Source: Limnohabitans sp. MORI2 (GTDB taxonomy: Bacteria > Pseudomonadota > Gammaproteobacteria > Burkholderiales > Burkholderiaceae_C). Taken from it: a stretch of DNA of 64,000 nt. Shown piece by piece: positions 23,788-46,328 of the stretch. Both the position numbers and the translations under genes were made by a program. Below the pieces are notes generated by a model. That model ran no database searches. It had not been told where the DNA came from and saw nothing but the letters and a program-made list of their open reading frames with translations. Where the stretch lies: the NCBI RefSeq assembly GCF_027925025.1, contig NZ_AP027058.1:434001-498000 (forward strand), in the 5' to 3' direction. Every line of letters begins with the position of its first letter. The stretch's first letter is position 1.

Positions 23788-23807
23788 TGCGGCAATAATT
23801 TGCCGAC
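23788..23807. promoter_or_regulatory. Diverged copy of the AGCGGCAA-N4-TTGCCGCT palindrome
   Basis: TGCGGCAA-TAAT-TTGCCGAC keeps the inner 6-bp arms exactly and differs at three outer positions from the three exact copies at 29800, 36033 and 46309. It lies between miaB and the carbonic anhydrase gene. Confidence 0.5.
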
Positions 23808-23819
23808 ATCTGTGGTGAT

Positions 23820-23847
23820 TAAAGCTTGTGTCAAATCGAGCCGATAC
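23820..23847 (+). promoter_or_regulatory. Possible sigma-28 promoter of the carbonic anhydrase gene
   Basis: TAAAGCTT (23820-23827), a 12-bp gap and GCCGATAC (23840-23847). Element sequences are close to the sigma-28 consensus, but the gap is one base longer than in the other six sites of this window. Confidence 0.4.
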
Positions 23848-23921
23848 CCACTGACTTGCCCGAATAGGCGCGTGCGCTGTGCGTGCCTGTTTGGCTTTAT
23901 CCAATGCACCCACTCAAGTGA

Positions 23922-25124
23922 ATGGCCATGAAAAAACATTTAAGACTGATCATTGAAATCGTCATGGGTCTGCTGCTCGCAGGCGCCTTGGCGTTTGGTT
24001 ACTGGAGCTACTCTGGTAAGAACCACATCATGAGCGAGCTCACAGAAGCCAGTGAAGGCGCCACTGAGGCGCAAGAAGAACTCGAAAAGCTGACCAAGGA
24101 ATTGGAAGAAGCCAAAGAGCATCTCGAGGAATACGAGCCAGCCGCCAAACAGTTCGCGGCGGTCAAAGAGTCGTTTGCCAACGGCGTGGTCTTGCAAGAC
24201 TATGAAGCCTTCATCAAGGCGCAAAAAGGCCCAACCACCAGCGAACGCCAATTGGGCTTAGGCGCCTTGCGTTTGTTGACCAAAGGTGCTGAAGATCCAG
24301 AGACTGTGAGCGCATTCCAAAAAGCATTGGAAATGGCTGAGTGGTCATCACGCGTGAAGTCGATTTGTGCAGCGCAAAACGCATTGGCCGCTGCCGGTCA
24401 AAAAGTGAAAGTTTTGGCTGATTGCGTGGTTGAGAAAGAAGACAAAGCCCACAAAAAAGGCCATGCTGTTCATTGGGATTACGCGGGTGACATGGGCCCA
24501 GAAAACTGGGGTGACGAGTTCCCTACCTGCGGCAAAGGTCAAAAACAATCACCTTTGAACATCACCGGTCCTTTCGAGAAATCCAAAGACGTGTTGGTGG
24601 TGAACTACAAAGAAGGTCCGCTCAAAATCTTGAACAACGGCCACACCATCCAAGTGAACGTGGAGCCAGGTAGCACATTGAAGATCAACAAGGACGTGTA
24701 TAACTTGTTGCAATTCCACTTCCACCGTCCCAGCGAAGAGCAAATCGACGGCAAACCCATGGCCATGGTGGCGCACTTTGTGCACAAGAACGCCGATGGC
24801 AAGTTGGCCGTGTTGGGCGTGTTGCTCAACGATGGCAAAGACAACGCCGCCATTCAGACATTGTGGGACAACGCCCCGAAAGCTGAAGGCCCTGAAGTTG
24901 TGGTGGATAAGGTCAAGTTTGACCCCAGTAGCTTGGTGCCTGCAGCATTGACTCACTACAGCTACGAAGGCTCATTGACCACGCCACCTTGTACCGAAGG
25001 TGTGAACTTCTACATCTTGAAGACACCGGTGGACATTGGTAAGAAGCAAGTGATTGAGTTCCCCTTCAAGCGTAATGCGCGTCCAGTGCAGCCATTGAAT
25101 GGTCGCAAGATCAACGCAAATTGA
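23922..25124 (+). CDS. Membrane-anchored alpha-carbonic anhydrase with coiled-coil region
   Basis: A 400-residue protein with three parts. An N-terminal membrane anchor (about residues 5-27) is followed by a Glu/Lys-rich predicted coiled coil (about 33-75) and a helical middle part. An alpha-carbonic anhydrase domain runs from about residue 183 (HWDYAG). Zinc ligands are His266 and His268 ([10 protein letters not shown]) and His285 (AHFVH); [10 protein letters not shown] and the final RPVQPLNGR are family hallmarks. It should hydrate CO2 on the periplasmic side. Usual bacterial alpha-CAs are about 250 residues with a simple signal peptide. ATG 23928 is an equal start candidate. Confidence 0.9.
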
Positions 25125-25153
25125 TGCACTGATATAACGTCATCTTCCAAGTC

Positions 25154-25190
25154 AAAACGCCTGCTCTGAATAGAGCAGGCGTTTTTTTTT
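25154..25190 (+). terminator. Intrinsic terminator after the carbonic anhydrase gene
   Basis: AAAACGCCTGCTCT (25154-25167) pairs with AGAGCAGGCGTTTT (25172-25185), loop GAAT, followed by further T's to 25190. With A-runs on the other side it could also act on the minus-strand gene at 25238. Confidence 0.92.
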
Positions 25191-25237
25191 ATGTCATCCA
25201 CAAAAAGCCCTGATATCAGGAGCCTTGAGGTGATGCG

Positions 25238-25675
25238 TTACACCAACTTTGGGGGAGGGGATGGCAAGGTGTAGAGCAAAGGCATGGCGACAGCAACCAG
25301 CAAGAACACCATCACCACAAAAATCAAAAGCAATTTGAAGAACTCAGGTGAGTCAGGAAATTTTTGCTTAGGCGCTGCGGGCGTTTCAATGCGAAAAGCC
25401 GGCAAAACGCTTCCCATGTGATCTGTTGTGGCGTGTGATCGAAAGACATTGATCACTGGCATGCCGTTGGGCTGAGAGCCACTCAGCGTGATGGCGACTT
25501 TCAAGGCAGCTTGGACCTTGGCGTCGCGATGACTAAATTGGCTGTAGCCACCATCTTCTAGCTCGCGAACCTGTGACTCGCTCAGTCCACACAGCTGTGC
25601 GACGCGCGCATGGCTGAGTTTGCAAAGCACCCGAAGGCGAAGCATGGCTTGTGGATCAATCAGGTCTGCGTGCAT
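25238..25675 (-). CDS. Small helix-turn-helix protein with C-terminal membrane anchor
   Basis: A 145-residue protein of unrecognised function. Residues about 10-60 look like an HTH (LSHARVAQLCGLSESQVRELEDG, as in XRE or RodZ N-termini), and residues about 113-136 form one membrane segment (FFKLLLIFVVMVFLLVAVAM). The layout is HTH in the cytoplasm, linker, tail anchor. It diverges from bactofilin with 177 bp between starts, so it may be a membrane-bound regulator or cytoskeletal adaptor of that gene; this is a guess from layout alone. Confidence 0.7.
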   Translation of the reverse strand: MHADLIDPQAMLRLRVLCKLSHARVAQLCGLSESQVRELEDGGYSQFSHRDAKVQAALKVAITLSGSQPNGMPVINVFRSHATTDHMGSVLPAFRIETPAAPKQKFPDSPEFFKLLLIFVVMVFLLVAVAMPLLYTLPSPPPKLV

Positions 25676-25852
25676 GGCGTATCTCTTCTGAGTTGCGTCA
25701 ACAGGACGGTCTGTACACCCTGTGGCGTATAGACCATGAACTAAGTTCTCTTGACAATATCGACAGATTTGTCAATTACTCAACCTCGAATTCAAACTGT
25801 TTGAAGCTTTTGCAGCTTGAGGTCAGAACTGAATGCAGCCCAGAAAGTCACT

Positions 25853-26188
25853 ATGAACGATCAAAACAATATGACCAAAGAAAACAGCATCTACATCGGA
25901 GAAGGTGTCGTCTTCAGTGGGACGATCAAAGCGCCCAATCAAGCTGTCATTTCAGGCAAGTTTGAGGGGGAGTTAGATGCGCGCGACGTGTTGATTGGCG
26001 CTTCTGGCGTAGTCACAGGAAAAACCACGGCCCAGTTTGTGGATGTCAAAGGTGAGCTGAATGAGTCAGTCACCAGCCGTGAATTGTTGATTGTTCGAGC
26101 CACAGGCCGTGTGAACGGCACTGTGACATACGGAGAAATTGAGATTGAACGTGGTGGTCAAGTCAAAGGTGACATGATCCAGCGTTAA
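25853..26188 (+). CDS. Bactofilin-family protein
   Basis: A 111-residue single-domain bactofilin (DUF583/PF04519). The beta-helix register is seen in repeated hydrophobic/Gly steps: SIYIGEGVVFSG, AVISGKFEGEL, VLIGASGVVTGK, FVDVKGELNESV, LLIVRATGRVNG. Bactofilins polymerise without nucleotides and scaffold wall enzymes or, in some species, flagellar and polar structures. The ATG at 25853 follows GAAAG poorly, but starts the family consensus. A TTGACA (25751) lies 100 bp upstream as a possible -35. The TAA stop overlaps the fliN stop tail to tail by 4 bp. Confidence 0.88.
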   Translation: MNDQNNMTKENSIYIGEGVVFSGTIKAPNQAVISGKFEGELDARDVLIGASGVVTGKTTAQFVDVKGELNESVTSRELLIVRATGRVNGTVTYGEIEIERGGQVKGDMIQR

Positions 26189-26604
26189 ATCATCTTGAGG
26201 CGCTCTGAAGAGGGCACCACACGCGTCAGGCGTACACCATAGCGGTCGTTGACCAAAACGATTTCGCCTTGCGCCACCACCGAGTTGTTGACCAACAAGT
26301 CCAGCGGCTCACCTGCAATGCGATCGAGTTCGACCACACTGCCTTGGGTCAAACGCATCAAGTCTTTGATCTTGATTTGTGCACGGCCCACTTCGATGGA
26401 CAAGTTCACCACAATGTTTTGCAACACTTCTGGGTTAATGTTGCCTGGCATGGTGGGCTTGAAGTCTTCCAAACTTGGCTCGACTTCCTCAGCGGGATGC
26501 GCGGCTACTTCTTCGTGGCTTTCTTGCTCAGTCGCTTCGACGGCTGTGGCTTCGACTTCAGTGTCGTCGTGCTCGGGGGTTGGGTTTTCTTTTTCGTCTG
26601 TCAT
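26185..26604 (-). CDS. fliN: Flagellar motor switch protein FliN
   Basis: A 139-residue C-ring protein. An acidic N-terminal half (Glu-rich, about residues 1-50) is followed by the SpoA/SpoIIIAA domain, IVVNLSIEVGRAQIKIKDLM...GSVVELDRIAGEPLDLLVNN. FliN forms the base of the switch complex with FliM and FliG and docks FliH. It is the last gene of the minus-strand fliK-L-M-N unit; fliO, P, Q and R do not follow here, unlike in many other genomes, because bactofilin ends against it. Confidence 0.95.
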   Translation of the reverse strand: MTDEKENPTPEHDDTEVEATAVEATEQESHEEVAAHPAEEVEPSLEDFKPTMPGNINPEVLQNIVVNLSIEVGRAQIKIKDLMRLTQGSVVELDRIAGEPLDLLVNNSVVAQGEIVLVNDRYGVRLTRVVPSSERLKMI

Positions 26605-26618
26605 GATGGTTTCCTGTT

Positions 26619-27611
26619 TCAGGGTTTGCCGTGAACGTGTTCGTGGTCAATTTGCACTGCCACTTGTGAGCCTCGTGTACCTACATTCACATGGAAGGCG
26701 GGGACACCATTGGCTGTCATCAGGGCGGTATCGTCTTTCTTGAAGAACAACAAATCGCCTTCTTGTAAATGGTTCAAGTGATGCAAGGTGGTTTTGATCT
26801 CACCCATCGTGACTTGCAATTCGAGCTTGGCATCGCCAACAGCAGCAGCCAAGTCTTTGCGCCACTTGCGGTCGGATTCTTCGTTGCCTTCGCCACTCTG
26901 TACACGGCTGCTGAGCAGTTCGCGCACAGGCTTCAATGTGGCATAGGGGTAGACCAAGTCTATAAAGCCCTTGCCACCGCTGGCAGTAGCGTCAGCTTCA
27001 AAGCGGCTTAAAACCACCAAATCGTTTTCATCTGCAATTTGTGCGAACTGAGGGTTGATCTCAGAGCTCACATGTTCGCATTCGATGGGCATCAAGGGTC
27101 CCCACGCTTCTGTGAGCGAGCGAAAGAACACTTCCAAAATGATTTTGATGATGCGTGATTCTGTTGGGGTGAACAGGCGACCGGGTGGGAGCTCGCCCAC
27201 GCCTTTGCCGAAACCACCGAAGAAGCTATCGAGTGAGCTGAACACCACGTTGGGGTCGATGATGATCACAGAGTTGCCGCGAAGCGGACTCATGCGAACC
27301 ATGTTCACGGACAACGGAGGGCGTAAGCCTTTGAGGTAATCACCAAACTTCAAAATTTGCACGCGTGTGGGGTTCACGCGTGGACTGGTACGCAGCACTT
27401 CGAGCAGGCCAAGACGGAACAGTCGGATGAAACGCTCGTTGATCATGTCGATCGACGAAACGTTCACACCCAAGCTGCTGTCTTCGCTGGCGAGGTCGTG
27501 CTTGCGCACCCGCACGCTGTTGTTGAAGCCAGTGTCGGTCTCGATCGAACCGTCGCGCACGCCTTCCGACAGCGCGGCCAGTTCTTCGTCCGAGAGCAGG
27601 TTTGATTTCAT
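26619..27611 (-). CDS. fliM: Flagellar motor switch protein FliM
   Basis: A 330-residue switch protein. The N-terminal LLSDEELAALSEG resembles the CheY-P binding helix, the middle domain begins near RFIRLFRLGLLEVLR, and a C-terminal SpoA domain (LQVTMGEIKTTLHHLNHLQEGDLL) pairs with FliN. It sets motor direction in response to phosphorylated CheY. It lies 11 bp after fliL and 14 bp before fliN. Confidence 0.96.
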   Translation of the reverse strand: MKSNLLSDEELAALSEGVRDGSIETDTGFNNSVRVRKHDLASEDSSLGVNVSSIDMINERFIRLFRLGLLEVLRTSPRVNPTRVQILKFGDYLKGLRPPLSVNMVRMSPLRGNSVIIIDPNVVFSSLDSFFGGFGKGVGELPPGRLFTPTESRIIKIILEVFFRSLTEAWGPLMPIECEHVSSEINPQFAQIADENDLVVLSRFEADATASGGKGFIDLVYPYATLKPVRELLSSRVQSGEGNEESDRKWRKDLAAAVGDAKLELQVTMGEIKTTLHHLNHLQEGDLLFFKKDDTALMTANGVPAFHVNVGTRGSQVAVQIDHEHVHGKP

Positions 27612-27622
27612 GGTTTAAGTGC

Positions 27623-28216
27623 TTACTGCATCACAAAAGAGGTGAAGAACACGTCTTCAATGCCACCGAAGTCTTCGTACTTCATCAGCATGTCGTTCAT
27701 CACGACCTTGATCTTGGCTGCCAATTCGACGCGGAAGTCAGACTTGGCCACATCTGCTTCAGTGCTTTGGCGCATGACGTCCAAAACAGCCGAACGAATG
27801 GCAAATTCATGCTTTTTCACGTTGTCGAAAACGCGTGAGTCGTAGTGAGTCATCACGGCCACTTTGACCACCATGATTTTTTTCGAGTTCGTGATGTTGG
27901 TCATGAACTCTTTGTCAATTTCCAAGTACGTGTTTTCAAAACGCGTGGCCTCGGCTTCTTTCTTGACTTTCGATGGGCCTTCGGGGGTGGCGTTGTGCGC
28001 GTTCTCGGCCTCTTTCTCTAACTCGTCCACTTTTTCGTGGGCGGCGGCTTCGCTCTTGTGTTCAAAGAAGCCTGAGAAATACAACGTACCGAACATCACG
28101 GACATGATCAAGACGATCACGGACAACACGATGACCAAGATTAAAAGAATCGGTTTCTTTTTCTTGGGTTCGCCTTCGACAACTTCTTCTGCCGGTGCTG
28201 CTTCTGCTTCTGCCAT
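27623..28216 (-). CDS. fliL: Flagellar basal body-associated protein FliL
   Basis: A 197-residue single-pass protein: short acidic N-terminus, membrane segment about residues 21-46 (ILLILVIVLSVIVLIMSVMF), a Glu/Lys/Ala-rich linker, then the periplasmic FliL domain ending DVFFTSFVMQ. FliL forms a ring around the stator units and supports torque. Longer than E. coli FliL (154) mainly in the linker. Confidence 0.95.
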   Translation of the reverse strand: MAEAEAAPAEEVVEGEPKKKKPILLILVIVLSVIVLIMSVMFGTLYFSGFFEHKSEAAAHEKVDELEKEAENAHNATPEGPSKVKKEAEATRFENTYLEIDKEFMTNITNSKKIMVVKVAVMTHYDSRVFDNVKKHEFAIRSAVLDVMRQSTEADVAKSDFRVELAAKIKVVMNDMLMKYEDFGGIEDVFFTSFVMQ

Positions 28217-28251
28217 ATCGTTCTCCTAATGTTCAGATTGTCATGCGTAAT

Positions 28252-29991
28252 TTATGCATAGAGGTCAAGCAAGGACGCATTGGCCTTGTTACGGGTTGAG
28301 GTGGCACCAGAAGGGCTGCCTGTACCGCTGACTTGCGATGATGAATTGTCTCTAACTTGGGTATTCCTGTTGGAATTTCCAGAGCTGTTGTGTTGGGTGT
28401 TACCACCACCTTGACCGACGTTGACTTGGCCGGCGTTAATGCCAAAGTTTCCAAGTGCTTCACGCAAACGCTGGCTACTGTTTTGCAGCAAGTCGCGGGT
28501 CAGAGGGTTGTCGGCATGGAAAACGGCATCAAGTTGGCCATCTTTCATTTCGAGATGGATTTCAACGCCGCCTAAATTAGAGGGACGCAGTGCAAACTTC
28601 ATCTTCCATTCGCCATCACTCAGCTGCTTGTGCATGCGTGCTGCCATCTCGGTGGCCAGCTTGTCGCTGAGTTGGTCATAGACCTCGCTCATATGAGCGC
28701 TGGTGGCCTGTGCTGCGTTTGTAGGGCTTGCACTTGCGGCATTTTTGTTCGTGCTCAGCGCTTGAGCAAAGCTGCTGAAATGTTGGTCTTCGCCTTGTGA
28801 CGACGGCTGATCTTGGCCGCTGCTGGTTTCTTCTGAGAAGCGAGACAGGAGGGCGCTCACATCGTTTTCATCAATACCCGTGCCAAAGAGCGACAACATC
28901 TCTATCGTGCTGGGTGCAGGTGTGTTGACTGCGTGGGTGTTGATGGGCAACACGGCGGCAGGCAAGACGGTGATTTGCAATTGTTGGATCGCTGCCATGT
29001 CAGTGGGCGTCAAGCCTGGTACTGAGGGGGTCGTCAAGGTGGTCGCGGGTGCTGCCAAGCCTGCGCCAGAAATCACCGCAGGTTGCGCGGTGGTGGCGGT
29101 CATGGCTGCCATTTGTGTGGCAATGTCGCTGTCGGTGGGGACGATGCCTTGTATCTGACTATTGAGCGTGGCATTTAGACCTGCTTGCAACGTAGGGGAG
29201 GGCGTCAGTCCTGAACCCGTCGCTGTCACGCCAGCGTTTGTTGCACTGGTCATCAGTGTGGCTGAGGTCGCAGGCTGTTGGGCGAGCAAATCTTGAATAG
29301 CGGATTCATCGATGCCCATGGATTGGGCAAAAGCGATCAGGCTCTCAGGACTGGGTGCCGCTTTGGGGTCTGTGATGATGCGCATCTGCGAACTTAACGC
29401 GACAGTTTGTAACGATGCGGCGTTGGCGGTGAGTTCGGAGCCATCTGATGCGGGTGCTGGAGTGGGTGCGACAACTGAGCTGACCTCTGCAACCTTCAAA
29501 GAGACGGTGACTTCGGCCGTAGTCACGGCTTGCGGGGCTGGGGCTGGTGTGATGGGCGCACCTTGCATCAAGCCTTCGAGCAACGCATCGACGTCTGTGT
29601 TGACTGTTTTTGTAGTGTTGCTTTGTTTGCGAGGGCGAGTTTGGGTCGTGGGGCGATCTTCGCTGTCTTGAGCGTTTGCCTCGTCTTCAGTCCGTGTGTT
29701 GCGTGCTTGCTGATCTGGTCGATCGATGCTGTGGCGATCGTGCACCACTGGGCGCGAATCTTGTGTGTCTGAGGCTGTCTGAGCCTCGTGAGGCGCGTCA
29801 GCGGCAATAGTTTGCCGCTGCTGGGGCACTAAGCGTTGTAGTTGACGCGCCATGACATCTGCGAAATCAAACCCCAAACTGTTGCCCGTAGACGGGCTCA
29901 CACCTGCGCTGGCGCCTTGCGCCGCCGCGTTGCTGGTGTTGTTTGGCACCAGCGGGGCTGGTGGCATTTGAAGGTAACTGGACAGGTTCAT
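28252..29991 (-). CDS. fliK: Flagellar hook-length control protein FliK
   Basis: A 579-residue FliK. The first ~430 residues are Ala/Thr/Gln/Ser-rich and weakly conserved, as expected of the molecular ruler part; the C-terminal domain (EWKMKFALRPSNLGGVEIHLEMKDGQLDAVF...LREALGNFGINAGQVNV) is canonical and switches FlhB specificity. A Gly/Asn/Ser-rich tail follows. It is the first gene of the minus-strand unit and diverges from flhA. Codons 58-64 overlap one of the regulatory palindromes (29800-29819). A second FliK-like gene is at 41998. Confidence 0.93.
   Translation of the reverse strand: MNLSSYLQMPPAPLVPNNTSNAAAQGASAGVSPSTGNSLGFDFADVMARQLQRLVPQQRQTIAADAPHEAQTASDTQDSRPVVHDRHSIDRPDQQARNTRTEDEANAQDSEDRPTTQTRPRKQSNTTKTVNTDVDALLEGLMQGAPITPAPAPQAVTTAEVTVSLKVAEVSSVVAPTPAPASDGSELTANAASLQTVALSSQMRIITDPKAAPSPESLIAFAQSMGIDESAIQDLLAQQPATSATLMTSATNAGVTATGSGLTPSPTLQAGLNATLNSQIQGIVPTDSDIATQMAAMTATTAQPAVISGAGLAAPATTLTTPSVPGLTPTDMAAIQQLQITVLPAAVLPINTHAVNTPAPSTIEMLSLFGTGIDENDVSALLSRFSEETSSGQDQPSSQGEDQHFSSFAQALSTNKNAASASPTNAAQATSAHMSEVYDQLSDKLATEMAARMHKQLSDGEWKMKFALRPSNLGGVEIHLEMKDGQLDAVFHADNPLTRDLLQNSSQRLREALGNFGINAGQVNVGQGGGNTQHNSSGNSNRNTQVRDNSSSQVSGTGSPSGATSTRNKANASLLDLYA
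29800..29819. promoter_or_regulatory. Palindrome AGCGGCAA-N4-TTGCCGCT inside fliK
   Basis: AGCGGCAA-TAGT-TTGCCGCT, an exact copy within the fliK 5' coding part, about 200 bp after the fliK start of transcription and 300 bp before that of flhA. Its left flank CGCGTC is shared with the copy at 46309. Confidence 0.6.
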
Positions 29992-30022
29992 GGTGGTCTT
30001 TAAACGAGTTTGCCAAGGAGTT

Positions 30023-30039
30023 AAGCAAGAACCGTGACA
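30023..30039 (-). promoter_or_regulatory. Probable sigma-54 promoter of fliKLMN
   Basis: On the minus strand TGTCAC-N5-TTGCTT. The -12 GC is intact and spacing is exact, but the -24 GG is GT, so the site may be weak. It lies 32 bp before the fliK ATG. Confidence 0.45.
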
Positions 30040-30056
30040 GGTTAGTTCTTGCCGCT
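30037..30056. promoter_or_regulatory. Half-copy of the palindrome between the fliK and flhA promoters
   Basis: The right arm TTGCCGCT (30049-30056) is exact; the left arm ACAGGTTA matches at four of eight positions. It sits between the two divergent sigma-54 sites. Confidence 0.3.
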
Positions 30057-30090
30057 TTCACTCAGCAGGCACATCAGTGTCAGTTTGACT

Positions 30091-30107
30091 TGGCACATCG
30101 ATTGCTT
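30091..30107 (+). promoter_or_regulatory. Sigma-54 promoter of flhA
   Basis: TGGCAC-ATCGA-TTGCTT is a full match to TGGCAC-N5-TTGCW. Transcription should begin near 30117, 64 bp before flhA, and could extend through flhF, flhG, fliA and the gene at 35276. Confidence 0.85.
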
Positions 30108-30180
30108 AACAAACATGCCTCGAATCTGTTTTCAAGGCAAAAAGAAACCAAAACGTTCCACTTCAAACTGGATTTTCCAA

Positions 30181-34524: not shown

Positions 34525-35279
34525 GAACACTATCCCCCGTACAAATGTACGAATCTTGCAAGCCTAAAGGCGAAGATTTGGTCATGGCCCATTTGGGCTT
34601 GGTCAAACGTGTGGCTTTGCACTTGAAGGCTCGTATTCCTGCATTCATGGAGCTCGATGAGCTGGTTCAAGTGGGCATGATTGGTCTGCTCGAAGCTTCT
34701 CGTGCTTTTGATCCCACCAAGGGCATCGAGTTTGAAAACTTCGCACACAGCCGTGTGCGTGGTGCGATGCTGGATGAAGTGCGGCGATTGTCGTTTTTGC
34801 CTCGCTCTGCAGTGGCTTTCAACAAAGAGCACAACACCACGGTGCATGCGCTAGCAGCTGAGTTGGGTCGCACGCCGACCCAATCAGAAATTGCCGAGTA
34901 CATGGGCAAAGATCTTGAAGAGTTTCACAAAGAGCGCGGCAAAGCCAAGCGCTTTGAGACTTATTCGATGGAAGTGGTGACCGAAGAGGTGATGACCATT
35001 GCCGATGACAGCTCGCAGCAACCAGAAGTGATTGTGGAAGAGGCCGAATTCATGGACGCGGTGACGGATGCGATTGCGCAGTTGCCTGAACGTGAGCAGC
35101 TCGTCATGCAGCTTTACTACGTTGAAGAGTTCAACCTCAAAGAGATTGGCGAGACACTGGGCGTGAGTGAATCGCGCGTGAGTCAAATCTTGTCCTCCGT
35201 AGTCAAGAAGTTGCGTGGCACTCTCAAGGTTGACAACGCTGCCGAAACCGAGAAGGTTGAGACAAGGAGACGCGCATGA
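34521..35279 (+). CDS. fliA: RNA polymerase sigma-28 factor for flagellar genes
   Basis: A 252-residue sigma-70 family group 3 factor. Region 2 is DELVQVGMIGLLEASRAFDPTKGIEFENFAHSRVRGAML, region 3 follows and region 4 ends LGVSESRVSQILSSVVKKLR. It directs late flagellar genes; seven sites that fit its consensus are marked in this window. The anti-sigma factor FlgM is encoded at 43823. The ATG overlaps the flhG TGA and its own stop overlaps the next ATG. Confidence 0.97.
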   Translation: MRTLSPVQMYESCKPKGEDLVMAHLGLVKRVALHLKARIPAFMELDELVQVGMIGLLEASRAFDPTKGIEFENFAHSRVRGAMLDEVRRLSFLPRSAVAFNKEHNTTVHALAAELGRTPTQSEIAEYMGKDLEEFHKERGKAKRFETYSMEVVTEEVMTIADDSSQQPEVIVEEAEFMDAVTDAIAQLPEREQLVMQLYYVEEFNLKEIGETLGVSESRVSQILSSVVKKLRGTLKVDNAAETEKVETRRRA

Positions 35280-36151
35280 GTAACTTCATGATGAACATGA
35301 TCTCGTGGATCTTGCTCCTTTTGGTGATTTTGACGCTGTATTTGATTGACAAAATCAACAACTTGGCCAAGATGTACGAGGCGCCTAAGCCAGATGTGCC
35401 CGCTCTGCCAGAGTTGGGGGCTGAAATTCCTGGCGATTTGCTGTTTTCAGGACTCGAGGGCAAAAAGCTATGGGATGCCATGAACGGCAAACAGGTCGAA
35501 GGCTTTGATGCCAGCATGATCGATGCTTTACGCCCGCACTACGAGCCTATCTTGCGTGAACACATTGTGGCCACCTTCAAAGATGGGTTGGAGGAAGTGG
35601 GCGGAGATGAAAGCAAAGTTCCGAGTTCTACACGAAAGATTCCAACTGTGCGTGGGCACATCGTGTCTTGGTTGCCACCACAGCATTTGGGCAGCGTTTA
35701 TCGCTCCGCCCTAGAGTTTGCGGGTAGCTATGCCAACAATCCCAACCCTGATGTCTTGGTTCGTTTGAAGCAGACGGTAGACAGCGTGGTGGATATGCTT
35801 TACCAACGTGTTGGCATCACCAATGAAGTGCCGTTTTCTGACTTCTTGTTTGAAGAAGCGCCCATCCATGAAGAGGCGTCACACGACGACAGCACTTTGC
35901 TGGCACTGACGGATGAGTCAGCTCAAATCAGCACTTTGGGTGAGGGCTTGGTTGAGAACAGCACAGAGCGCGAGATCACGCCAGAGGAGTTGGCTCAAGG
36001 GCTCGAGCATGTTCAAGCCTACGAGGACGAGCAGCGGCAAGAAATTGCCGCTGAAACGGTTGAGGCTGTGATGTATTCCGAGCCTGAGGCAGAAGTTTTG
36101 GCCGAAGAAGCCCCTGAGCAAGAGGCTGAGCTTGAAGTGAAACCTGCCTGA
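35276..36151 (+). CDS. Unknown single-pass membrane protein in the fliA operon
   Basis: A 291-residue protein I cannot assign. It has an N-terminal membrane segment (about residues 8-25), then a soluble domain to about residue 185 with a compact helical feel (REHIVATFKDGLEEVGGD, RGHIVSWLPPQHLGSVYRSALEFAGSY, LKQTVDSVVDMLYQRVG), and a long acidic Glu-rich tail (about 195-291). ATG overlaps the fliA stop by four bases, so expression with flhA-flhF-flhG-fliA is expected. No chemotaxis or stator family fits. One of the regulatory palindromes lies in its tail codons (36033-36052). Confidence 0.8.
   Translation: MSNFMMNMISWILLLLVILTLYLIDKINNLAKMYEAPKPDVPALPELGAEIPGDLLFSGLEGKKLWDAMNGKQVEGFDASMIDALRPHYEPILREHIVATFKDGLEEVGGDESKVPSSTRKIPTVRGHIVSWLPPQHLGSVYRSALEFAGSYANNPNPDVLVRLKQTVDSVVDMLYQRVGITNEVPFSDFLFEEAPIHEEASHDDSTLLALTDESAQISTLGEGLVENSTEREITPEELAQGLEHVQAYEDEQRQEIAAETVEAVMYSEPEAEVLAEEAPEQEAELEVKPA
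36033..36052. promoter_or_regulatory. Palindrome AGCGGCAA-N4-TTGCCGCT upstream of fliS
   Basis: AGCGGCAA-GAAA-TTGCCGCT, an exact copy in the 3' coding part of the unknown gene, about 145 bp before the fliS sigma-28 site. Confidence 0.55.
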
Positions 36152-38663: not shown

Positions 38664-38678
38664 GCCCCGCGATGGCGT

Positions 38679-38710: not shown

Positions 38711-38747
38711 CTTGCATGGACCGCAGTGTTGTGTCAGGCGCCTTGGC

Positions 38748-39848
38748 TTATGCCGCTGGACGCAGCTCGTACTTGTTGATCTTTTCAATCAAGGTGGTGC
38801 GTTGCAAATTCAATAACTTAGCGGTACGAGACACATTGCCCGAGTTGCGATTGAGCGCCTGCTCAATGATGCTGCGCTCAATCTGAGCCATGCGCTCTTT
38901 GAGCGACAGGCCCTCTGGTGGTAATTGAGGCATGCCTTGCGCCAGCATGATGAGGCCTTCGATCTCGTTTTCCTCTTCTTCCGGCTCCTCGTTCATCTCG
39001 GCCAGCACCTCGGGAGGTGGCGTCATTTCGAGCTTGGCCAACAAAGGGGCTTGCGCTTGCAACTCGGCCTGAGCAGAGACCAACCCTTTGGGCAGCAGGG
39101 TAGGTGGGATCGCGCGTAAGTCGAGTTCTTGGCCTGCATAGAGCGTGCTGAAGCGATCAACCACGTTGGAGAGTTCACGCACATTGCCTGGCCATGGGTA
39201 CTTTTGCAAAGCCGCCAAGAAGTCGGGTTTGAAGCGAATGGGTTGCTTGCCAAAGTTGGCGCATTTTTTTGCGAAAAATGCCAACAATTCGGGGATGTCA
39301 GTGTTGCGTTCGCGCAACGGAGGCGTCACCATGGGCAGCACATTGAGTCGGTAATACAAGTCTTCACGGAAACGACCCGCCGCAATTTCGTTTTCCAAAT
39401 CGCGGTGAGTCGCTGCCACCACGCGTACATCCACCTGTACTTGGCGGGTGCTACCAATGGGATCGACCGTGCGTTCTTGCAAGACACGCAGCAGCTTGAC
39501 TTGCATGTCGAGCGACATGTCGCCAATTTCGTCTAAGAAGATCGTGCCGCCATGGGCTAGCTCAAATCGTCCGATTCGATCGGCGACAGCCCCTGTGAAA
39601 GCGCCTTTGCGGTGGCCAAACAGCTCGCTTTCCAGCAAATCCTTAGGAATTGCCGCACAGTTAATTGGCACAAAGTTGGCGCCACAGCGGTCTGATTGCT
39701 CATGCAGCAGCCTGGCCAAAAGTTCTTTGCCCGTGCCGCTTTCGCCCGTGATCATCACCGTGGCGTTGGAGTTGGCCATGGTTGCGACCAGTTGGCGCAA
39801 AGAGACCGCTGACTCGCTGGAGCCGATGAAGTTTGTCGTGGATGTCAT
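38748..39848 (-). CDS. Sigma-54 activator without receiver domain (FleQ-like flagellar regulator)
   Basis: A 366-residue enhancer-binding protein that starts almost directly with the AAA+ domain. Walker A GESGTGKE is at 35-42, the sigma-54 contact loop GAFTGA at 82-87, Walker B FLDEIGD at 104-110. The C-terminal Fis-type HTH (NSGNVSRTAKLLNLQRTTLIEKINKYEL) resembles FleQ/FlrA, where RTT..EK.RKY is typical. A Glu-rich linker lies before it. FleQ-like proteins switch on class II flagellar genes with sigma-54; at least three sigma-54 sites are in this window. The missing N-terminal domain means it cannot be controlled by phosphorylation there; FlhG or c-di-GMP acting on the AAA+ part is possible. 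Confidence 0.88.
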   Translation of the reverse strand: MTSTTNFIGSSESAVSLRQLVATMANSNATVMITGESGTGKELLARLLHEQSDRCGANFVPINCAAIPKDLLESELFGHRKGAFTGAVADRIGRFELAHGGTIFLDEIGDMSLDMQVKLLRVLQERTVDPIGSTRQVQVDVRVVAATHRDLENEIAAGRFREDLYYRLNVLPMVTPPLRERNTDIPELLAFFAKKCANFGKQPIRFKPDFLAALQKYPWPGNVRELSNVVDRFSTLYAGQELDLRAIPPTLLPKGLVSAQAELQAQAPLLAKLEMTPPPEVLAEMNEEPEEEENEIEGLIMLAQGMPQLPPEGLSLKERMAQIERSIIEQALNRNSGNVSRTAKLLNLQRTTLIEKINKYELRPAA

Positions 39849-39926
39849 GTCAAAAATTCCTACACATGATTGTCGGCGACTCTGCCTATTTCACAAGACA
39901 GAAAAAGTATTCGTATTTAGATTTGT

Positions 39927-39953
39927 TAAAGATGCCCGAGTCGGTGCCGAATC
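39927..39953 (+). promoter_or_regulatory. Sigma-28 promoter of the flgP/flgT-like block
   Basis: TAAAGATG-N11-GCCGAATC, 28 bp before the lipoprotein ATG. The -10 resembles that of fliC (ACCGAATC). Confidence 0.65.
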
Positions 39954-39981
39954 ATGGGGGAGACCTCTCAAGGACATAGAT

Positions 39982-40464: not shown

Positions 40465-40481
40465 GCGAATGTGACGAGATT

Positions 40482-41564: not shown

Positions 41565-41586
41565 ACCATCAACGGGAGAACCGACC

Positions 41587-41988
41587 ATGAAAACGCCTAT
41601 GACTTCCGTTCGCGCTTTGCTGTGCTGCATGATTGCGAGCGCACCCATGCTTTGTCTAGCAGCCAAACCGGTTGCGCATGCCACGTATGTGGTTGAGTCG
41701 GGTGACACGTTAGACAAAGTGATTCGCAAGACCATGCCCGACAGCCCCTTGCGCGTTGATATTTTGCGCAATGCGTTTGTGCAACAAAATCCACAAGCCT
41801 TCACCAAGGCGCCACCTCGCTCATTGATGGCTGGGGCTGTTTTGAATGTGCCCAACCATGACGATCTGCTTCGCAGCTATATGGTGCCTGGTCATGCCCC
41901 CGGCAACAGCGGCATGCACCGTGGCGGCGGTTATTCGACGGCCGATATGAATATGAACGAGCGCAAGAACTGGGTGCGATTCCCCTAA
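41587..41988 (+). CDS. Small secreted LysM/FimV-N-like protein
   Basis: A 133-residue protein with a signal peptide (cleavage near CLAAKPVA) and one LysM-like segment with the FimV flavour: YVVESGDTLDKVIRKTMPDSPLRVDILRNAFVQQNPQAF...GAVLNVPN. The C-terminus is Gly/Met/Asn-rich. It may bind peptidoglycan around the basal body. GGGAGA lies 8 bp before ATG 41587. It is in the same run as the FlgP- and FlgT-like genes; I know no named counterpart. Confidence 0.72.
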   Translation: MKTPMTSVRALLCCMIASAPMLCLAAKPVAHATYVVESGDTLDKVIRKTMPDSPLRVDILRNAFVQQNPQAFTKAPPRSLMAGAVLNVPNHDDLLRSYMVPGHAPGNSGMHRGGGYSTADMNMNERKNWVRFP

Positions 41989-41997
41989 GGGGCCGCT

Positions 41998-43086
41998 GTG
42001 TCAATCTTGGGTCCTGAGGGCGTCCACGCGATTCCGCGTGTGGCGCCTGTTCATTTGGAAATGCGCACGGCCTATGTTGAGGCGCCAGTGGCACGTCAGC
42101 TGGGTCTACACGATGGTCAGGTGGTGCAGGCGGTCGCGGCCATGCGCAATGAGCATCTCAAGTTGGTGCTGAATGAGCACAGCTTTAATGTGCCACTGTT
42201 TCCCTACATCAAAGATGGCGACGTGGTGCAGCTGCGTGCACACTTGTTACCCACGGGTAAATGGGCTTTGCAACTCTTGCATACCGGCAGTTTTGCAGGA
42301 ACGGAGCCATTGCCTACTGGCCTCCCTACCCGCTTGAATACCTTGCTGTTTCAACCACCAGGGTTTACAAACCTCATGGCTTTGTTGCGCCCTGGCGTGT
42401 TGGAAGCTTTGATTCCACCGGTTCAAGATGCAGCAGAACTGAAGAAACGCATCGGTGCGCAGCGCTTGAGCATGAGTAGTTTGCAACCTCAAGCACTGAA
42501 GCGTTTTATCTTGGGGCATGCCAGATCGAGCGAAGCAAGTTTGGCGGATGGTGAGCCTGTGGCAGACAACACCAAGGTGTTGTTGCGCTTGCTCATGGCC
42601 GAACGTGAGCGTGTCGAAGAACAAGACAGCGTAGAGACCCAAGACTCACTCAAGCATGCGTTGGATGAGTTAGAGGCGGCGCAGTTGCAGGCCAGTCCAG
42701 CGGTCAACAAAGGTGACTTGAGTTTCGCTTTTGTCATTCCCTTTCGAGACGCAGATCCGGTGGAGCTGCATTTTGAGCAAAAGGGCAATCAGCCCGGGCA
42801 ACCCAAATCGCCTTTGGTGGTCAATATGCACACACAAAGTCGCGTGTTGGGCGAGGTGTGGCTTAAAACCACCATCAGCGCAAATGCGCAAGTGGATTTG
42901 ACCATGTGGGCGTTGCGTAAAGACGTGGCCGATCTGGCCAAGTTCAATGCCACCGAACTGACCGATGAGCTCGAAAGTGCAGGCTTGCACATGGGCAGTT
43001 TTCAGGTTTACAACGCACCACGTCCAGATGCGACACCAGACCATCCTCCACCAGAACACGGCAGCGTGGTGGACACACGCGTATGA
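41998..43086 (+). CDS. Second FliK-like (hook-length control domain) protein
   Basis: A 362-residue protein starting at GTG 41998, 9 bp after the previous stop. The C-terminal third (VELHFEQKGNQ...SPLVVNMHTQSRVLGEVWLKTTISANAQVDLTMWAL...LTDELESAGLHMGSFQVYNAP) has the beta-rich pattern of the FliK C-terminal domain, while the N-terminal part is unlike the true FliK ruler (28252-29991). It overlaps the FlhB-like gene by 4 bp. The pair resembles Bacillus ylqG-ylqH next to flagellar genes. Function is inferred from these likenesses. Confidence 0.7.
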   Translation: MSILGPEGVHAIPRVAPVHLEMRTAYVEAPVARQLGLHDGQVVQAVAAMRNEHLKLVLNEHSFNVPLFPYIKDGDVVQLRAHLLPTGKWALQLLHTGSFAGTEPLPTGLPTRLNTLLFQPPGFTNLMALLRPGVLEALIPPVQDAAELKKRIGAQRLSMSSLQPQALKRFILGHARSSEASLADGEPVADNTKVLLRLLMAERERVEEQDSVETQDSLKHALDELEAAQLQASPAVNKGDLSFAFVIPFRDADPVELHFEQKGNQPGQPKSPLVVNMHTQSRVLGEVWLKTTISANAQVDLTMWALRKDVADLAKFNATELTDELESAGLHMGSFQVYNAPRPDATPDHPPPEHGSVVDTRV

Positions 43087-43370
43087 ACGACAAACACTAC
43101 ACCCAAGCAGTGGCGTTGGAGTATGGCCGCAACAAAGTGCCTGTACTCACAGCCAAAGGCGATGACGAGCTTGCACGTCGCATCGTGGCCGAAGCCAAAA
43201 AGCAAGGCGTGTATGTGGCCGAAGATCCACGTCTGTTAGCGATGTTGAGCCGACTCGATATCGGGCAAGAAATCCCAGAAGATATGTTCACCGCGGTCGC
43301 CGTGATTTTGGCGTGGGTGTATTGGCTCAAGGGCATGCAGCCTGGGGATGAAAAGCCCCAAAAAGCCTAG
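43083..43370 (+). CDS. FlhB C-terminal domain paralogue (FhlB/YlqH-like)
   Basis: A 95-residue cytoplasmic protein matching only the C-terminal part of FlhB after the NPTH cleavage site: ALEYGRNKVPVLTAKGDDELARRIVAEAKKQGVYVAEDPRLLAMLSRLDIGQEIPEDMFTAVAVILAWVYWL. No membrane domain and no NPTH motif are present. In Helicobacter, FhlB can replace the natural C-terminal fragment of FlhB. The full flhB is not in this window. It is coupled to the FliK-like gene, the partner class that talks to FlhB. Confidence 0.85.
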   Translation: MNDKHYTQAVALEYGRNKVPVLTAKGDDELARRIVAEAKKQGVYVAEDPRLLAMLSRLDIGQEIPEDMFTAVAVILAWVYWLKGMQPGDEKPQKA

Positions 43371-43374
43371 TGGG

Positions 43375-43806
43375 TTACGCCTCTGCGTAACCTCGACCGC
43401 CACCGCGTCGTCCGCCACGCGAGACTTTGCCCAAACGGTCATAAATCTCAACGGAGCTTGCAGGGTCTTGAATTTGCAAACTTTGTAATGCGCCGCGAAT
43501 GGCGTCAATTTTTCGAACAATCAACACTTCGTTGCGGCGATGCATGTCGCGGCAATGTGCCATGTGTTCTTTGAAACCATCCCACTCTGGGCCTAGGGCG
43601 TCAGCAGACTCTGGGCCATCAATCCCAGCCAACTGCGCGAGCTGTTGCAACAGCTCAGTTTTAGATGTTTGCGACGCTTCGAATGCGTCAAGGTTTTGCG
43701 CTTTCAGGTGCTCGAACTCTTGTTCGAGCATATCTTCCAGCGTTTTCACCAAAGCCAAAGCCTGCTCAAGTGAGGAGGCTTGTGTGTCCGTGGCGAGTGA
43801 TGTCAT
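43375..43806 (-). CDS. flgN: Flagellar export chaperone FlgN
   Basis: A 143-residue, mostly helical protein matching FlgN: LEQALALVKTLEDMLEQEFEHLKAQNLDAFEASQTSKTELLQQL at the N-terminus. It carries FlgK and FlgL to the export gate. The C-terminus is Gly/Arg-rich (GGRRGGGRG), unusual for the family. ATG 43806 is preferred over a TTG at 43815. It follows flgM by 16 bp and converges with the FlhB-like gene (4-bp gap). Confidence 0.85.
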   Translation of the reverse strand: MTSLATDTQASSLEQALALVKTLEDMLEQEFEHLKAQNLDAFEASQTSKTELLQQLAQLAGIDGPESADALGPEWDGFKEHMAHCRDMHRRNEVLIVRKIDAIRGALQSLQIQDPASSVEIYDRLGKVSRGGRRGGGRGYAEA

Positions 43807-43822
43807 GCGAGTCAACGAACGA

Positions 43823-44143
43823 TCAGTTACCGATCATTTTTTCCAACGCCACAAAGTTTTCGGCGATGCGGCGTGGATTCACAGGATAGTTACCGTCTTT
43901 GATGGCTTGCTTGATCGCTTCAACCTTGGAGCGGTCAAAGTCTGGCTGTGCCATGACTTTTTGGGCAACGTTGCTCAAGCTCACTTTGTCTGCTCCTGCG
44001 GAAGATGCTTTATCCATGGACGGAGCCAAGTCCTCTTTGGCTTGCGCGGCAGAAGGGCTTCGTTTTTCGACTTTATCGATGGCGCTGCGAATGGCAGCGT
44101 TCGATTGCGTCATACGACCGTAGTTTGAAATAGCGTCATTCAT
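43823..44143 (-). CDS. flgM: Anti-sigma-28 factor FlgM
   Basis: A 106-residue protein. The C-terminal half (DKVSLSNVAQKVMAQPDFDRSKVEAIKQAIKDGNYPVNPRRIAENFVALEK) is the FliA-binding region of FlgM. It holds FliA inactive until it is exported after hook completion. It has its own sigma-28 site at 44197-44223, giving feedback, and can also be read from the flgA sigma-54 promoter. Confidence 0.95.
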   Translation of the reverse strand: MNDAISNYGRMTQSNAAIRSAIDKVEKRSPSAAQAKEDLAPSMDKASSAGADKVSLSNVAQKVMAQPDFDRSKVEAIKQAIKDGNYPVNPRRIAENFVALEKMIGN

Positions 44144-44196
44144 GATGTTTTCACTTTCTTAGCCCATTGAGTGGGCCAAACTTTTTCACAACACTT

Positions 44197-44223
44197 CAAT
44201 CGACCCCAAATTTTAGAACTTGA
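44197..44223 (-). promoter_or_regulatory. Sigma-28 promoter of flgM
   Basis: On the minus strand TCAAGTTC (44223-44216), N11, GTCGATTG (44204-44197). It lies 53 bp before the flgM ATG, between flgA and flgM. Confidence 0.7.
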
Positions 44224-44257
44224 GCGTTTTTTTGAAATATTTTTTAAATACCACTTT

Positions 44258-45025
44258 TCACTTCACTTTCGCGGCATTCGGTCCAGTAATCACGCCATAG
44301 AGTGATCGACCCGACTCCGAATTTTTTAAGCGAATTTGTTCACCCAAACCACCGTCTTGCAACGCTTCCGCACGCATTGTGATGGAAAAGCCTTGTCCTT
44401 CGCCTGCTGTGACCAAAACCTCTTGTCCGCGCTTGACCAACACAGCGGTCTTCACGTCATACGAACGCAGAGGGGTGTTGGGCGTGAGGTCGCGCACCAA
44501 CTCCATGTTTTTTAATAAATTTGCATCAGAAATGATTTGGTTTTCCATGCCGGCAGCTGGCATTTCCGCGTAGCTGAACATGGAAGGGGAAATCACCGTA
44601 CCGCGCTTGAGCAGCTCTTTGGACACCAAGACTCTGTGCAGAGCTTGGCCGGATGTTGTGTCGCGTGAAGGCGTCGGCCCAGCCGTCAGATTGACGAAAA
44701 GCTGCCAAGCCGGTTGGGCGCAGCGCACGCGTACGGCCGGTTGGTTTGGAAAAGGGTGCTCAAACTGCAGGTTTTGTTGACAGTTTTGAACCGTAATGCG
44801 TGGGTCAACAGGCGCAACCTGCACCTGTTTACCGCGAAAAGAGGGGTGCGAGCTGGCCCATTGTTGAGCTTGTTTTTGCAAGGCCTCAAAACCACTGTCC
44901 ATTGACGCTGAATCGGCTGCAAAACCAAGCTGGGCGTGGCTTAGCACGCATGCGGCCAGCGCCATGCCCCAGCGCTTCAAGCGTTGGGTGTCGGCATTTT
45001 TTAGGCACAGCATTTGCATAGTCAT
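44258..45025 (-). CDS. flgA: Flagellar P-ring assembly chaperone FlgA
   Basis: A 255-residue periplasmic protein: signal peptide ending near LGFAADSA, then the SAF-like domain (VLVSKELLKRGTVISPSMFSYAEM) and the C-terminal VKRGQEVLVTAGEGQGFSITMRAEALQDGGLGEQIRLKNSESGRSLYGVITGP typical of FlgA. It assists FlgI polymerisation into the P ring. Met1, Met3 and Met5 are close alternatives for the start. The gene is first in flgA-flgM-flgN. Confidence 0.95.
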   Translation of the reverse strand: MTMQMLCLKNADTQRLKRWGMALAACVLSHAQLGFAADSASMDSGFEALQKQAQQWASSHPSFRGKQVQVAPVDPRITVQNCQQNLQFEHPFPNQPAVRVRCAQPAWQLFVNLTAGPTPSRDTTSGQALHRVLVSKELLKRGTVISPSMFSYAEMPAAGMENQIISDANLLKNMELVRDLTPNTPLRSYDVKTAVLVKRGQEVLVTAGEGQGFSITMRAEALQDGGLGEQIRLKNSESGRSLYGVITGPNAAKVK

Positions 45026-45071
45026 TCGGGTCAGTGTTGATGTTTTGACATTTGTTTAGACACAACCCTTT

Positions 45072-45088
45072 ATGCAAGAACGAAGCCA
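45072..45088 (-). promoter_or_regulatory. Sigma-54 promoter of flgAMN
   Basis: On the minus strand TGGCTT-CGTTC-TTGCAT. The -24 GG and -12 GC are correctly spaced; CAC of the -24 is CTT. It lies 46 bp before the flgA start. Confidence 0.65.
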
Positions 45089-45120
45089 ACTTTTCAAGGA
45101 CCGATTAAACGGAGCAGCCC

Positions 45121-46299
45121 ATGCAACTCGACCCGTCCTATAGCCCACAGGTGAACACCACCGACGCCTCCGGCATGCCAAAGCTGCCACGGAGCCAGTT
45201 GGCGTACGCCCGTACGGCGCCTGCCTTCGCGCGTGCGTTGGCCAGCGCCAATCAATCAGGTGCTTTGGCACCAGAGGGCAGTACGACTCCTTGGAGCACG
45301 TCGGTTCGGTCGGGGCAAACGTTGACGGGCATCGTGCGTGAGCAAATGGCCTCGCGTGGTGTAACTATTTCGAACAACGAAGCCATGCGTTTGGCGCAAA
45401 CCTTGGCGCGTTCAAACAATATTGCCAATCCCAACATGATCCATCCAGGTCAACAGCTGAACCTGGAAAGTTTGAATTTCTCGCTTCAACAAGCGCAGGC
45501 GGTGAACCAAGCCATCGCAGCGAACAAAGCGGCTGTGGCCGCCGCCGCCGCACCTGCGGTGACGCCCGCTGCCAATGTGAACACCCTCAACACCAATACA
45601 CCCATGGGTGCAACAGCTTTGGCGGGCACTGCACAAGTGCAGTTGCTGACACGCTCAGATCGCAGTGGCAATGTGGTGTTAGAAAAAACCATTGATCGTG
45701 CGATTGAAAAAGGCTTCATTCCCGCCCAAGATAAACAAGCGGTGATGAACAAAATTGTTCAACTCTCCCAAGAGCACCGCTTTGCCCCCGATGACTTTGC
45801 TCGCCTCACTTTGATGGAAAGTGATGGCATGAACCCCAAGGCCACCAATAATCGTTGCCACGGCATCATTCAGTTTTGTGATGGTCCTGATCGCGGTGCG
45901 GCCAGTGCTGGGTTTGGCGCCAACCCCAAAGCGATCTTGGGTCATAGCGTGTTGCAGCAGCTCGACATGGTGGGGAAGTATTTTGACGACACAGGTCTGA
46001 AGAACTTTGGACCAGTTGGTTTGGATGATCTGTACTTGACCGTGCTCACGCCCGCTGCGCGAAGTGAGACAAGGCCCAATGCAGCATTGAATATTCCAGG
46101 TCAACAAGCGGCTTACTTGCACGTGAACCGCGACACCCGTGCACCCATCACGCGTAACTCCATACTTGCTGGGTTACACCAAAACGCCAATGAACGATTG
46201 GGCAAAGATGTGTTGGCACAACAGCAACCACGCACAACCCTGCAGGCCGCTCGCTTGAGCGCCTATGCCGCACAAGCGGCCGTGACGGAATCACGTTAA
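45121..46299 (+). CDS. LysM and lytic transglycosylase-like protein, candidate rod muramidase
   Basis: A 392-residue protein without a Sec signal peptide. A LysM domain lies at about residues 59-115 (WSTSVRSGQTLTGIVREQM...NPNMIHPGQQLNLESL), an Ala-rich linker follows (140-180), then a domain that looks like a transglycosylase: FARLTLMESDGMNPKATNNRCHGIIQF, with Glu233 in the ES position. FlgJ in this window (55273) lacks the muramidase domain, so this may open the wall for the rod, possibly exported through the flagellar gate like FlgJ. GGAG precedes the ATG; TTGACA (45045) is a possible -35. It diverges from flgA and precedes flgB. Confidence 0.7.
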   Translation: MQLDPSYSPQVNTTDASGMPKLPRSQLAYARTAPAFARALASANQSGALAPEGSTTPWSTSVRSGQTLTGIVREQMASRGVTISNNEAMRLAQTLARSNNIANPNMIHPGQQLNLESLNFSLQQAQAVNQAIAANKAAVAAAAAPAVTPAANVNTLNTNTPMGATALAGTAQVQLLTRSDRSGNVVLEKTIDRAIEKGFIPAQDKQAVMNKIVQLSQEHRFAPDDFARLTLMESDGMNPKATNNRCHGIIQFCDGPDRGAASAGFGANPKAILGHSVLQQLDMVGKYFDDTGLKNFGPVGLDDLYLTVLTPAARSETRPNAALNIPGQQAAYLHVNRDTRAPITRNSILAGLHQNANERLGKDVLAQQQPRTTLQAARLSAYAAQAAVTESR

Positions 46300-46308
46300 T
46301 TTCGCGTC

Positions 46309-46328
46309 AGCGGCAAAAGTTTGCCGCT
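46309..46328. promoter_or_regulatory. Palindrome AGCGGCAA-N4-TTGCCGCT upstream of the flgB promoter
   Basis: AGCGGCAA-AAGT-TTGCCGCT, an exact copy centred about 43 bp before the -12 of the flgB sigma-54 site. No T-run follows, so a terminator role is less likely. Confidence 0.65.

Follow-up and report, generated by a model that had tools for sequence, protein, structure and literature searches.

A 20-bp palindrome, AGCGGCAA-N4-TTGCCGCT, recurs across the flagellar genes in a stretch of 64,000 nucleotides from Limnohabitans sp. MORI2 (contig NZ_AP027058.1, positions 434,001 to 498,000; this whole stretch is here called the window, whose own positions are counted from its first letter, while six-digit positions refer to the genome). 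Judged from sequence comparisons, the palindrome quite probably serves as enhancer (operator) for the FlrC/FleR-type sigma-54 activator of the genus, a 486-amino-acid protein encoded outside the window at G000:C1:530229, about 56 kb from the FlrA/FleQ-type activator gene at 38748 and just before the fliF operon. Dimers of this activator would bind the palindrome through a Fis-type helix-turn-helix (HTH), and the bound protein would assemble into an AAA+ ring and reach sigma-54 polymerase at a -24/-12 promoter. The predicted targets are the middle (class III) operons flgB, fliK and flagellin, and probably also flgG and a small gene at 677.7 kb.

A pattern search of the window confirmed the exact copies that an earlier note on this DNA had placed at 29800-29819 (in fliK), 36033-36052 and 46309-46328 (ahead of the flgB sigma-54 promoter). 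A scan of the whole 2,649,037-bp genome, which that note had suggested, found these three and no other exact copy, all within one 17-kb flagellar stretch, rather than the hundreds of copies of a repetitive extragenic palindromic (REP) element. The reversed pattern of the 18-bp core, used as a control, had no exact match in the genome. That a threefold repeat is far beyond chance was also upheld, as the base composition of the window predicts 0.0008 exact copies, and among all dyads built of 8-bp arms around a 0-12-bp gap this is the only one that the window contains three times. With three mismatches or fewer allowed, the window holds seven places (mean 0.55 and maximum 4 in 100 shuffles), and the genome holds 42 (three exact, one with one mismatch, at 677600, six with two and 32 with three) vs 16 for the reversed control. 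Among 61 genomes, own genome included, the 18-bp core was present in 18/37 from the genus and 5/24 others of the order, and its reversed control in 2/37 and 2/24. Within the genus the arms are conserved and the loop is free to vary. When mean mismatch was computed separately for the fliK, fliS-side and flgB regions, the real arm order beat 299 of 300 shuffled orders each time, and its single equal was the original arm drawn a second time. Fifteen of the genomic matches were inspected (all ten at up to two mismatches and five of the 32 at three), and five of them have a sigma-54 promoter (at least 10/12 consensus positions) within 400 bp, namely those at fliK (with flhA), flgB, flgF/flgG, flagellin and 677600.

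Ahead of flgB, the rod protein gene (46398-46805, plus strand; TIGR01396, with its ATG possibly at 46422), the exact copy AGCGGCAA-AAGT-TTGCCGCT (46309-46328) is a putative enhancer of the flgB operon. It lies 39 bp, start to start, before a -24/-12 element, TGGCACGGCTCTTGCA (46348-46363, plus strand), that matches the sigma-54 consensus at 12/12 positions. Orthologous flagellar regions, a comparison also suggested earlier, were drawn from relatives and anchored on flhA, fliS and flgB, and the resulting genus counts include the own genome. The palindrome stands ahead of flgB with 0-3 mismatches in 13/13 genus genomes whose stretch included this gene, at 38-39 bp from the promoter in six and at 89-91 bp in seven. 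Between flgA and flgB there is a LysM-containing open reading frame (ORF) of 392 amino acids (45121-46299), syntenic in relatives, which ends 10 bp before the site.

The copy at 29800-29819 is situated within the 5' part of fliK (28252-29991, minus strand), the hook-length control gene, which was recognized by weak YscP/HpaP matches and by synteny in relatives and which in Vibrio belongs to class III. The site is 224 bp downstream of the fliK sigma-54 promoter, TGTCACGGTTCTTGCT (30024-30039, minus strand, 11/12), and a second sigma-54 promoter (30091-30106, plus strand, 11/12) serves flhA. The fliK/flhA set comprised 27 sequences, from which four at contig edges were dropped to leave 23 genus genomes, and a fliK-internal copy with 0-2 mismatches was found in 16 of these. 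In 16/16 genomes it lay 223-224 bp from the promoter of fliK, which is on the opposite strand, whereas its distance to the flhA start ranged from 239 to 296 bp with no fixed value; thus, fliK is the gene to which the site belongs, with the site on the downstream side of the promoter. Measured from the fliK ATG, the site is offset by 172, 166 or 163 nt (counted by eye from the MNLS start in two genomes), such that the leader length varies and the distance from site to promoter stays constant, a constancy that may reflect only a few events on the tree. The half-copy that the earlier note had seen at 30037-30056 is present as the half-site TTGCCGCT, but its position can be refined, as it runs into the upstream end of the fliK promoter. 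Matches with three mismatches occur in three relatives at 236 bp from the fliK site, the same spacing as this half-site.

Read in one frame, the fliK copy encodes mostly Arg-Gln-x-x-Ala-Ala, with Arg-Pro in four genomes. Its Arg codon is CGG in 16/16 genomes, a codon used for 13 of the 460 arginines encoded by 27 genes from the window. The exact copy at 36033-36052 is also coding, and CGG stands at the corresponding place in 9/9 genomes with that copy, with the reading frame confirmed by eye in the own genome only. It seems to be the DNA word itself that has been conserved.

Flagellin genes extend the list of candidate targets. The flagellin of the own genome has a weaker copy at 525657 and a sigma-54 promoter at 525770, and across the genus, this locus included, copies lie upstream of flagellin in 10/13 loci at up to four mismatches and in 7/13 at up to three, with none in three loci. 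These copies sit 79-138 bp ahead of the sigma-54 promoter, which is found at -60 to -64 in 13/13 loci, and they are paired in some cases, 20-23 bp apart in four loci and 49 bp apart in one. The second flagellin of the own genome has no site, and one relative (G010) carries an exact copy 135 bp before its second flagellin, where no sigma-54 match was found. The flagellin protein itself is very large (1332 amino acids; L182:7832-11830), with its family domains retained at the ends, and adjoining it on the opposite strand is an ORF of 2046 amino acids (L182:1401-7541) in which 55 stretches match the ALTTAQ repeat (PF20080).

The sole copy with one mismatch in the genome, at 677600, is about 200 kb from the cluster. 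A sigma-54 promoter, TGGCACGCCTTATGCA, follows seven bases past the site and precedes an ORF of 128 amino acids, which adjoins a gene with a YcgR-type PilZNR domain. In the genome G009, a site with identical arms and a different loop, together with the same promoter, precedes a start of this gene that is 97% identical, and among more distant matches of the gene (27-40% alike) site and promoter were not found together. An ORF in this place (L183:9601-10110; G000:C1:677600-678109) is a candidate new flagellar-regulon gene beside the YcgR-type PilZNR gene.

The distances from site to promoter at flgB, flagellin, flgG and 677600 gather around a common phase when folded on a period of 10.5 bp (n=34, R 0.74, a set without the distant Shewanella copies and without those in fliK, which lie 223-224 bp downstream), and a scan of periods from 8 to 14 bp peaked at 10.5. 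The signal was present in two collapsed sets (n=20, R 0.65, P 5e-5; n=16, R 0.61, P 0.003), in the gammaproteobacterial flgB copies taken by themselves (n=10, R 0.76, P 0.001) and in a set enlarged by far copies and copies with four mismatches (n=44, R 0.70); these values are to be read with the pooled and collapsed sites being hand-chosen and the related genomes non-independent. Phasing of this kind would be expected of a site-bound protein that has to be oriented towards sigma-54 polymerase. Together with the fixed arms and free loops, the nearby sigma-54 promoters and the flagellar neighbours, it strongly supports the suggestion made earlier of a dimer-binding operator linked to motility.

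The window holds further copies. The exact copy at 36033-36052 had been described as lying before fliS; it is 195 bp upstream of that gene, but more precisely it lies inside the 3' end of an ORF of 291 amino acids that follows fliA and has no family match (35276-36151, plus strand). The site has 0-3 mismatches in 9/23 genus genomes and at least four in 14, and none of the nine has a sigma-54 match of at least 10. The diverged copy reported at 23788-23807 does exist, with three mismatches, but it is inside miaB and is probably a chance match. A copy with two mismatches in flgF (52275-52294) is 142 bp before a perfect sigma-54 promoter, TGGCACGGACTTTGCA (52417-52432, plus strand, 12/12), located inside flgF and ahead of flgG. 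The copy was not conserved at its place in five relatives examined, and the promoter was identical in two of these, changed by one base in a third and weaker in two. The copy at 53563, in flgH, was matched within three mismatches in 1/5 relatives. No sigma-54 promoter at the threshold of 10/12 was found within 400 bp of the 23788, 53563 and 12830 copies.

The word is found beyond the genus as well. Gammaproteobacterial genomes were gathered through matches of the 366-amino-acid FlrA/FleQ-type protein, and 26/27 had a flgB match; 30 loci less five gave a set of 25, one per genome, with four second copies (L251-L254) and the best Vibrio flgB match (L249) set apart. The last of these has neither a palindrome nor a sigma-54 match, and two of the three flgB-like places in the Vibrio genome were inspected, neither of which has a sigma-54 promoter. 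The 250 bp before flgB were scanned in the 25 loci for dyads with all 6-bp half-sites and gaps of 0-12, alongside three mononucleotide shuffles. At up to one mismatch the top dyads were GCGGCA-N6-TGCCGC (10/25) and CGGCAA-N4-TTGCCG (9/25), with a best shuffle of 2, and at up to two mismatches the same dyads were again on top, in 14/25, with shuffles reaching at most 5. Between -300 and +40, 12/25 flgB regions have a copy with up to three mismatches, ten of them 59-93 bp before the sigma-54 promoter, and four regions have one with four mismatches. A strict pattern, GCGGNAANNNNTTGCCGCT, matched eight distinct places in 20 gammaproteobacterial genomes, of which three are before flgB, one is inside fliK and one precedes a flagellin-type gene next to flaF (just under the Pfam cut-off). 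In Photobacterium, among the flrA/flrC loci, a copy with one mismatch, AGCGGCAATGATTAGCCGCT, stands about 240 bp before a flagellin.

The choice of the FlrC/FleR-type protein as binder rests on its placement in a tree, on a shared recognition helix and on the absence of the site where an FlrA/FleQ-type protein would be expected to act. Two flagellar sigma-54 activators are encoded in the genome. In a quick tree of 40 proteins, in which the program flagged long branches, the 486-amino-acid protein fell on the FlrC/FleR side and the 366-amino-acid protein on the FlrA/FleQ side, the split having a Shimodaira-Hasegawa-like approximate likelihood ratio test (SH-aLRT) value of 100. The gene order around the former is flagellin, the activator gene, fliE-like, fliF and fliG (fliE, fliF and fliG having been named by eye). 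An earlier view of the 366-amino-acid protein as the FlrC homologue, its matches having come from flrABC loci, was reversed by gene order and tree. The recognition helix in the HTH of the 486-amino-acid protein, LGISPRTLRYKLAQMR, is identical in three Pseudomonas proteins (L117, L122 and L130), and the flgB promoters of these genomes carry near-copies of the palindrome. Both activators are closest to those of a Porticoccaceae/Cellvibrionales pair, whose architecture is reduced in the same way. Activators of the FlrA/FleQ type that lack the N-terminal FleQ domain were seen in the genus and in this pair (window 38748-39848 and L102:10001-11149).

The 366-amino-acid protein (38748-39848, minus strand; HTH LQRTTLIEKINKY) was the first candidate of the earlier note, and were it the binder, the palindrome would be the operator of the master regulator. 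This alternative is unlikely, and the FleQ-like protein is judged not to be the binder, as it is of the FlrA/FleQ type and the site is found at class III-type, not class II-type, promoters. In its favour, the gene is inside the cluster and encodes a DNA-binding HTH, and passages of PMC6120874 report chromatin immunoprecipitation (ChIP) peaks of FleQ in Pseudomonas at flgB, fliK and flhA; neighbourhood alone, therefore, cannot pick the binder. Upstream of the flrC-like gene in the genus, however, the best match has at least five mismatches in 23/23 regions (own genome included; 400 bp in 22 of them and 76 bp in one), 17 of which have a sigma-54 match of at least 11, and of the gammaproteobacterial regions that follow flrC and should hold the fliE promoter, 0/17 are within two mismatches of the 12-bp core, while 9/17 have a sigma-54 match of at least 10; by the same core measure, 15/25 gammaproteobacterial flgB regions are positive. 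The lack of a fixed distance between the fliK site and flhA also argues against an FlrA/FleQ operator. Moreover, the proposed FleQ box, GTCaNTAAAtTGAC (PMC6120874), resembles the present site in belonging to a flagellar sigma-54 activator and in being palindromic as proposed, but a direct comparison shows a different sequence, as the earlier note had said, although passages of the same paper call the consensus unreliable.

An operator of another dimeric regulator common to flagellar promoters is somewhat less probable still. Many regulators would suit such a palindrome, the 36033 copy is away from sigma-54 promoters, and the word is missing upstream of flgB in some genomes that have the same FlrC helix, but the helical phasing to -24/-12 elements, the downstream position in fliK and the presence of the word at class III-type promoters in both beta- and gammaproteobacteria all speak against this reading. 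It is highly improbable that the palindrome is a terminator stem, is REP-like or arose as a coincidence of protein coding. The arms could pair into a stem-loop, two of the copies are coding and read as Arg-Gln-x-x-Ala-Ala, and a stop codon lies 10 bp before the start of the flgB copy; nevertheless, three exact genomic copies contrast with the tens to hundreds of intergenic copies of REP elements and bacterial interspersed mosaic elements (BIMEs), no T-run follows the stem, and a coding coincidence is at odds with the intergenic flgB and flagellin copies, the rare CGG in every fliK copy and the varying loops. These three readings were rejected in view of copy number, the absent T-run and rare-codon use. 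A search of the window against Rfam gave no match at gathering thresholds.

A number of observations weigh against the FlrC/FleR-type protein as binder. The occupancy of flgB by FleQ in ChIP sequencing in Pseudomonas (passages of PMC6120874) is one, and the FlrC of Pseudoalteromonas (L128) is another, as it has a helix identical to LGISPRTLRYKLAQMR, yet its flgB region is without the word. In the genus, six of the 23 genomes lack the fliK-internal copy, their best match having five or six mismatches, and a seventh (G019) has at fliK only a promoter-proximal copy with two mismatches. The 36033 copy has no recognizable sigma-54 promoter nearby (at least 10/12, 400 bp), and protein coding could contribute to its conservation. 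In the gammaproteobacterial set, 9/25 flgB regions have nothing within four mismatches between -300 and +40, these being from Pseudoalteromonas, P. fulva, Photobacterium, Rheinheimera, Dyella, Rhodanobacter, one member of the Cellvibrionales and two unclassified genomes; both Shewanella have only a copy with three mismatches at -249 or -278, which is 220 and 250 bp before the promoter, and the pair nearest to the 486-amino-acid protein (L102 and L103) has no clear copy before flgB. When three mismatches are allowed, the top of the dyad scan is taken by the sigma-54 element (23/25), with CGGCAA-N4-TTGCCG at 19 and shuffles at 10, and the 18-bp core at up to two mismatches gives 25-124 places per genome vs 9-124 for the reversed control in ten whole gammaproteobacterial genomes, a scan that was discarded as too unspecific. 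Even among the eight strict matches, three are not recognizably flagellar, as judged by eye from neighbouring ORFs.

FlrB of Vibrio cholerae phosphorylates FlrC at D54, and the class III promoters there depend on phospho-FlrB (passages of PMC12607845 and PMC6504787). The N-terminal part of the 486-amino-acid protein has no match to the PF00072 response-regulator family at E values up to 10, and VIRL stands opposite the acceptor motif VVSD when the sequences are aligned, with the Thr and Lys positions also changed. A search with one FleS query (L117) returned 17 matches in the genome and no clear FleS-type partner, and a kinase too unlike FleS would escape such a search; the best match reached 32% over the kinase core, and the nearest, at 585412, is 54 kb from the activator gene. 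Whether the genus and the Porticoccaceae/Cellvibrionales pair share a two-step FlrA to FlrC cascade whose two classical sensory domains are lost, with no FleQ domain in FlrA, a dead receiver in FlrC and no FlrB, appears about evenly balanced. Under that scheme the checkpoint by which class III transcription is normally tied to assembly would operate via the pseudo-receiver or another partner, and the old FlrC/FleR word would have been kept, even in the fliK coding sequence, with a rare codon and at constant spacing.

Known systems offer partial parallels. According to passages of PMC6504787, FlrC and sigma-54 exert class III control over the rod, FliMN, export and FlaA flagellin genes in V. 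cholerae, and the FlrC sites there are alike in being true enhancers of sigma-54 class III promoters (flaA and flgB), typically downstream of the transcription start, as at fliK here. They differ in that FlrC requires phosphorylation by FlrB, and the flgB region of Photobacterium has no copy. Pseudomonas FleR shares the identical helix in three Pseudomonas and near-copies 81-82 bp before the flgB sigma-54 promoter in 3/4 genomes, but it has a canonical receiver and an adjoining kinase gene. No FlrC/FleR consensus was found in the titles, abstracts or passages searched, leaving aside the primary footprint paper and the FleR figure from high-throughput systematic evolution of ligands by exponential enrichment (HT-SELEX) in P. 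syringae (PMC7532196). FlbD of Caulobacter is likewise a sigma-54 flagellar activator with no known kinase (passages of PMC3930126 and PMC7064773), and its activity does not appear to be kinase dependent, as stated in a passage of PMC3930126; FlbD is the nearest parallel in kinase independence. It is regulated by FliX, in which it differs, and of FlbD and its ftr sites the comparison covers the activator.

Several other features of the window were observed. The ORF in the flgE position (47980-51822) is very large at 1280 amino acids, as is FlgK at 1214 (55770-59414), whose terminal parts retain its family domains. At 41998-43370, a protein whose FliK-like Flg_hook match falls slightly short of the Pfam cut-off is followed by one of 95 amino acids resembling the FlhB C-terminus, and a eukaryotic-type carbonic anhydrase (PF00194; 23922-25124) with about 190 extra N-terminal residues is divergent from miaB.

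A defined FlrC/FleR word common to polar flagellates among the beta- and gammaproteobacteria would, if true, make class III flagellar genes readable from sequence. It would also help to separate the FlrA/FleQ regulon from that of FlrC/FleR, FleQ being without a reliable consensus (passages of PMC6120874). In addition, a lineage with an activator that lacks a phosphorylatable receiver would open the assembly checkpoint to study without a two-component kinase.

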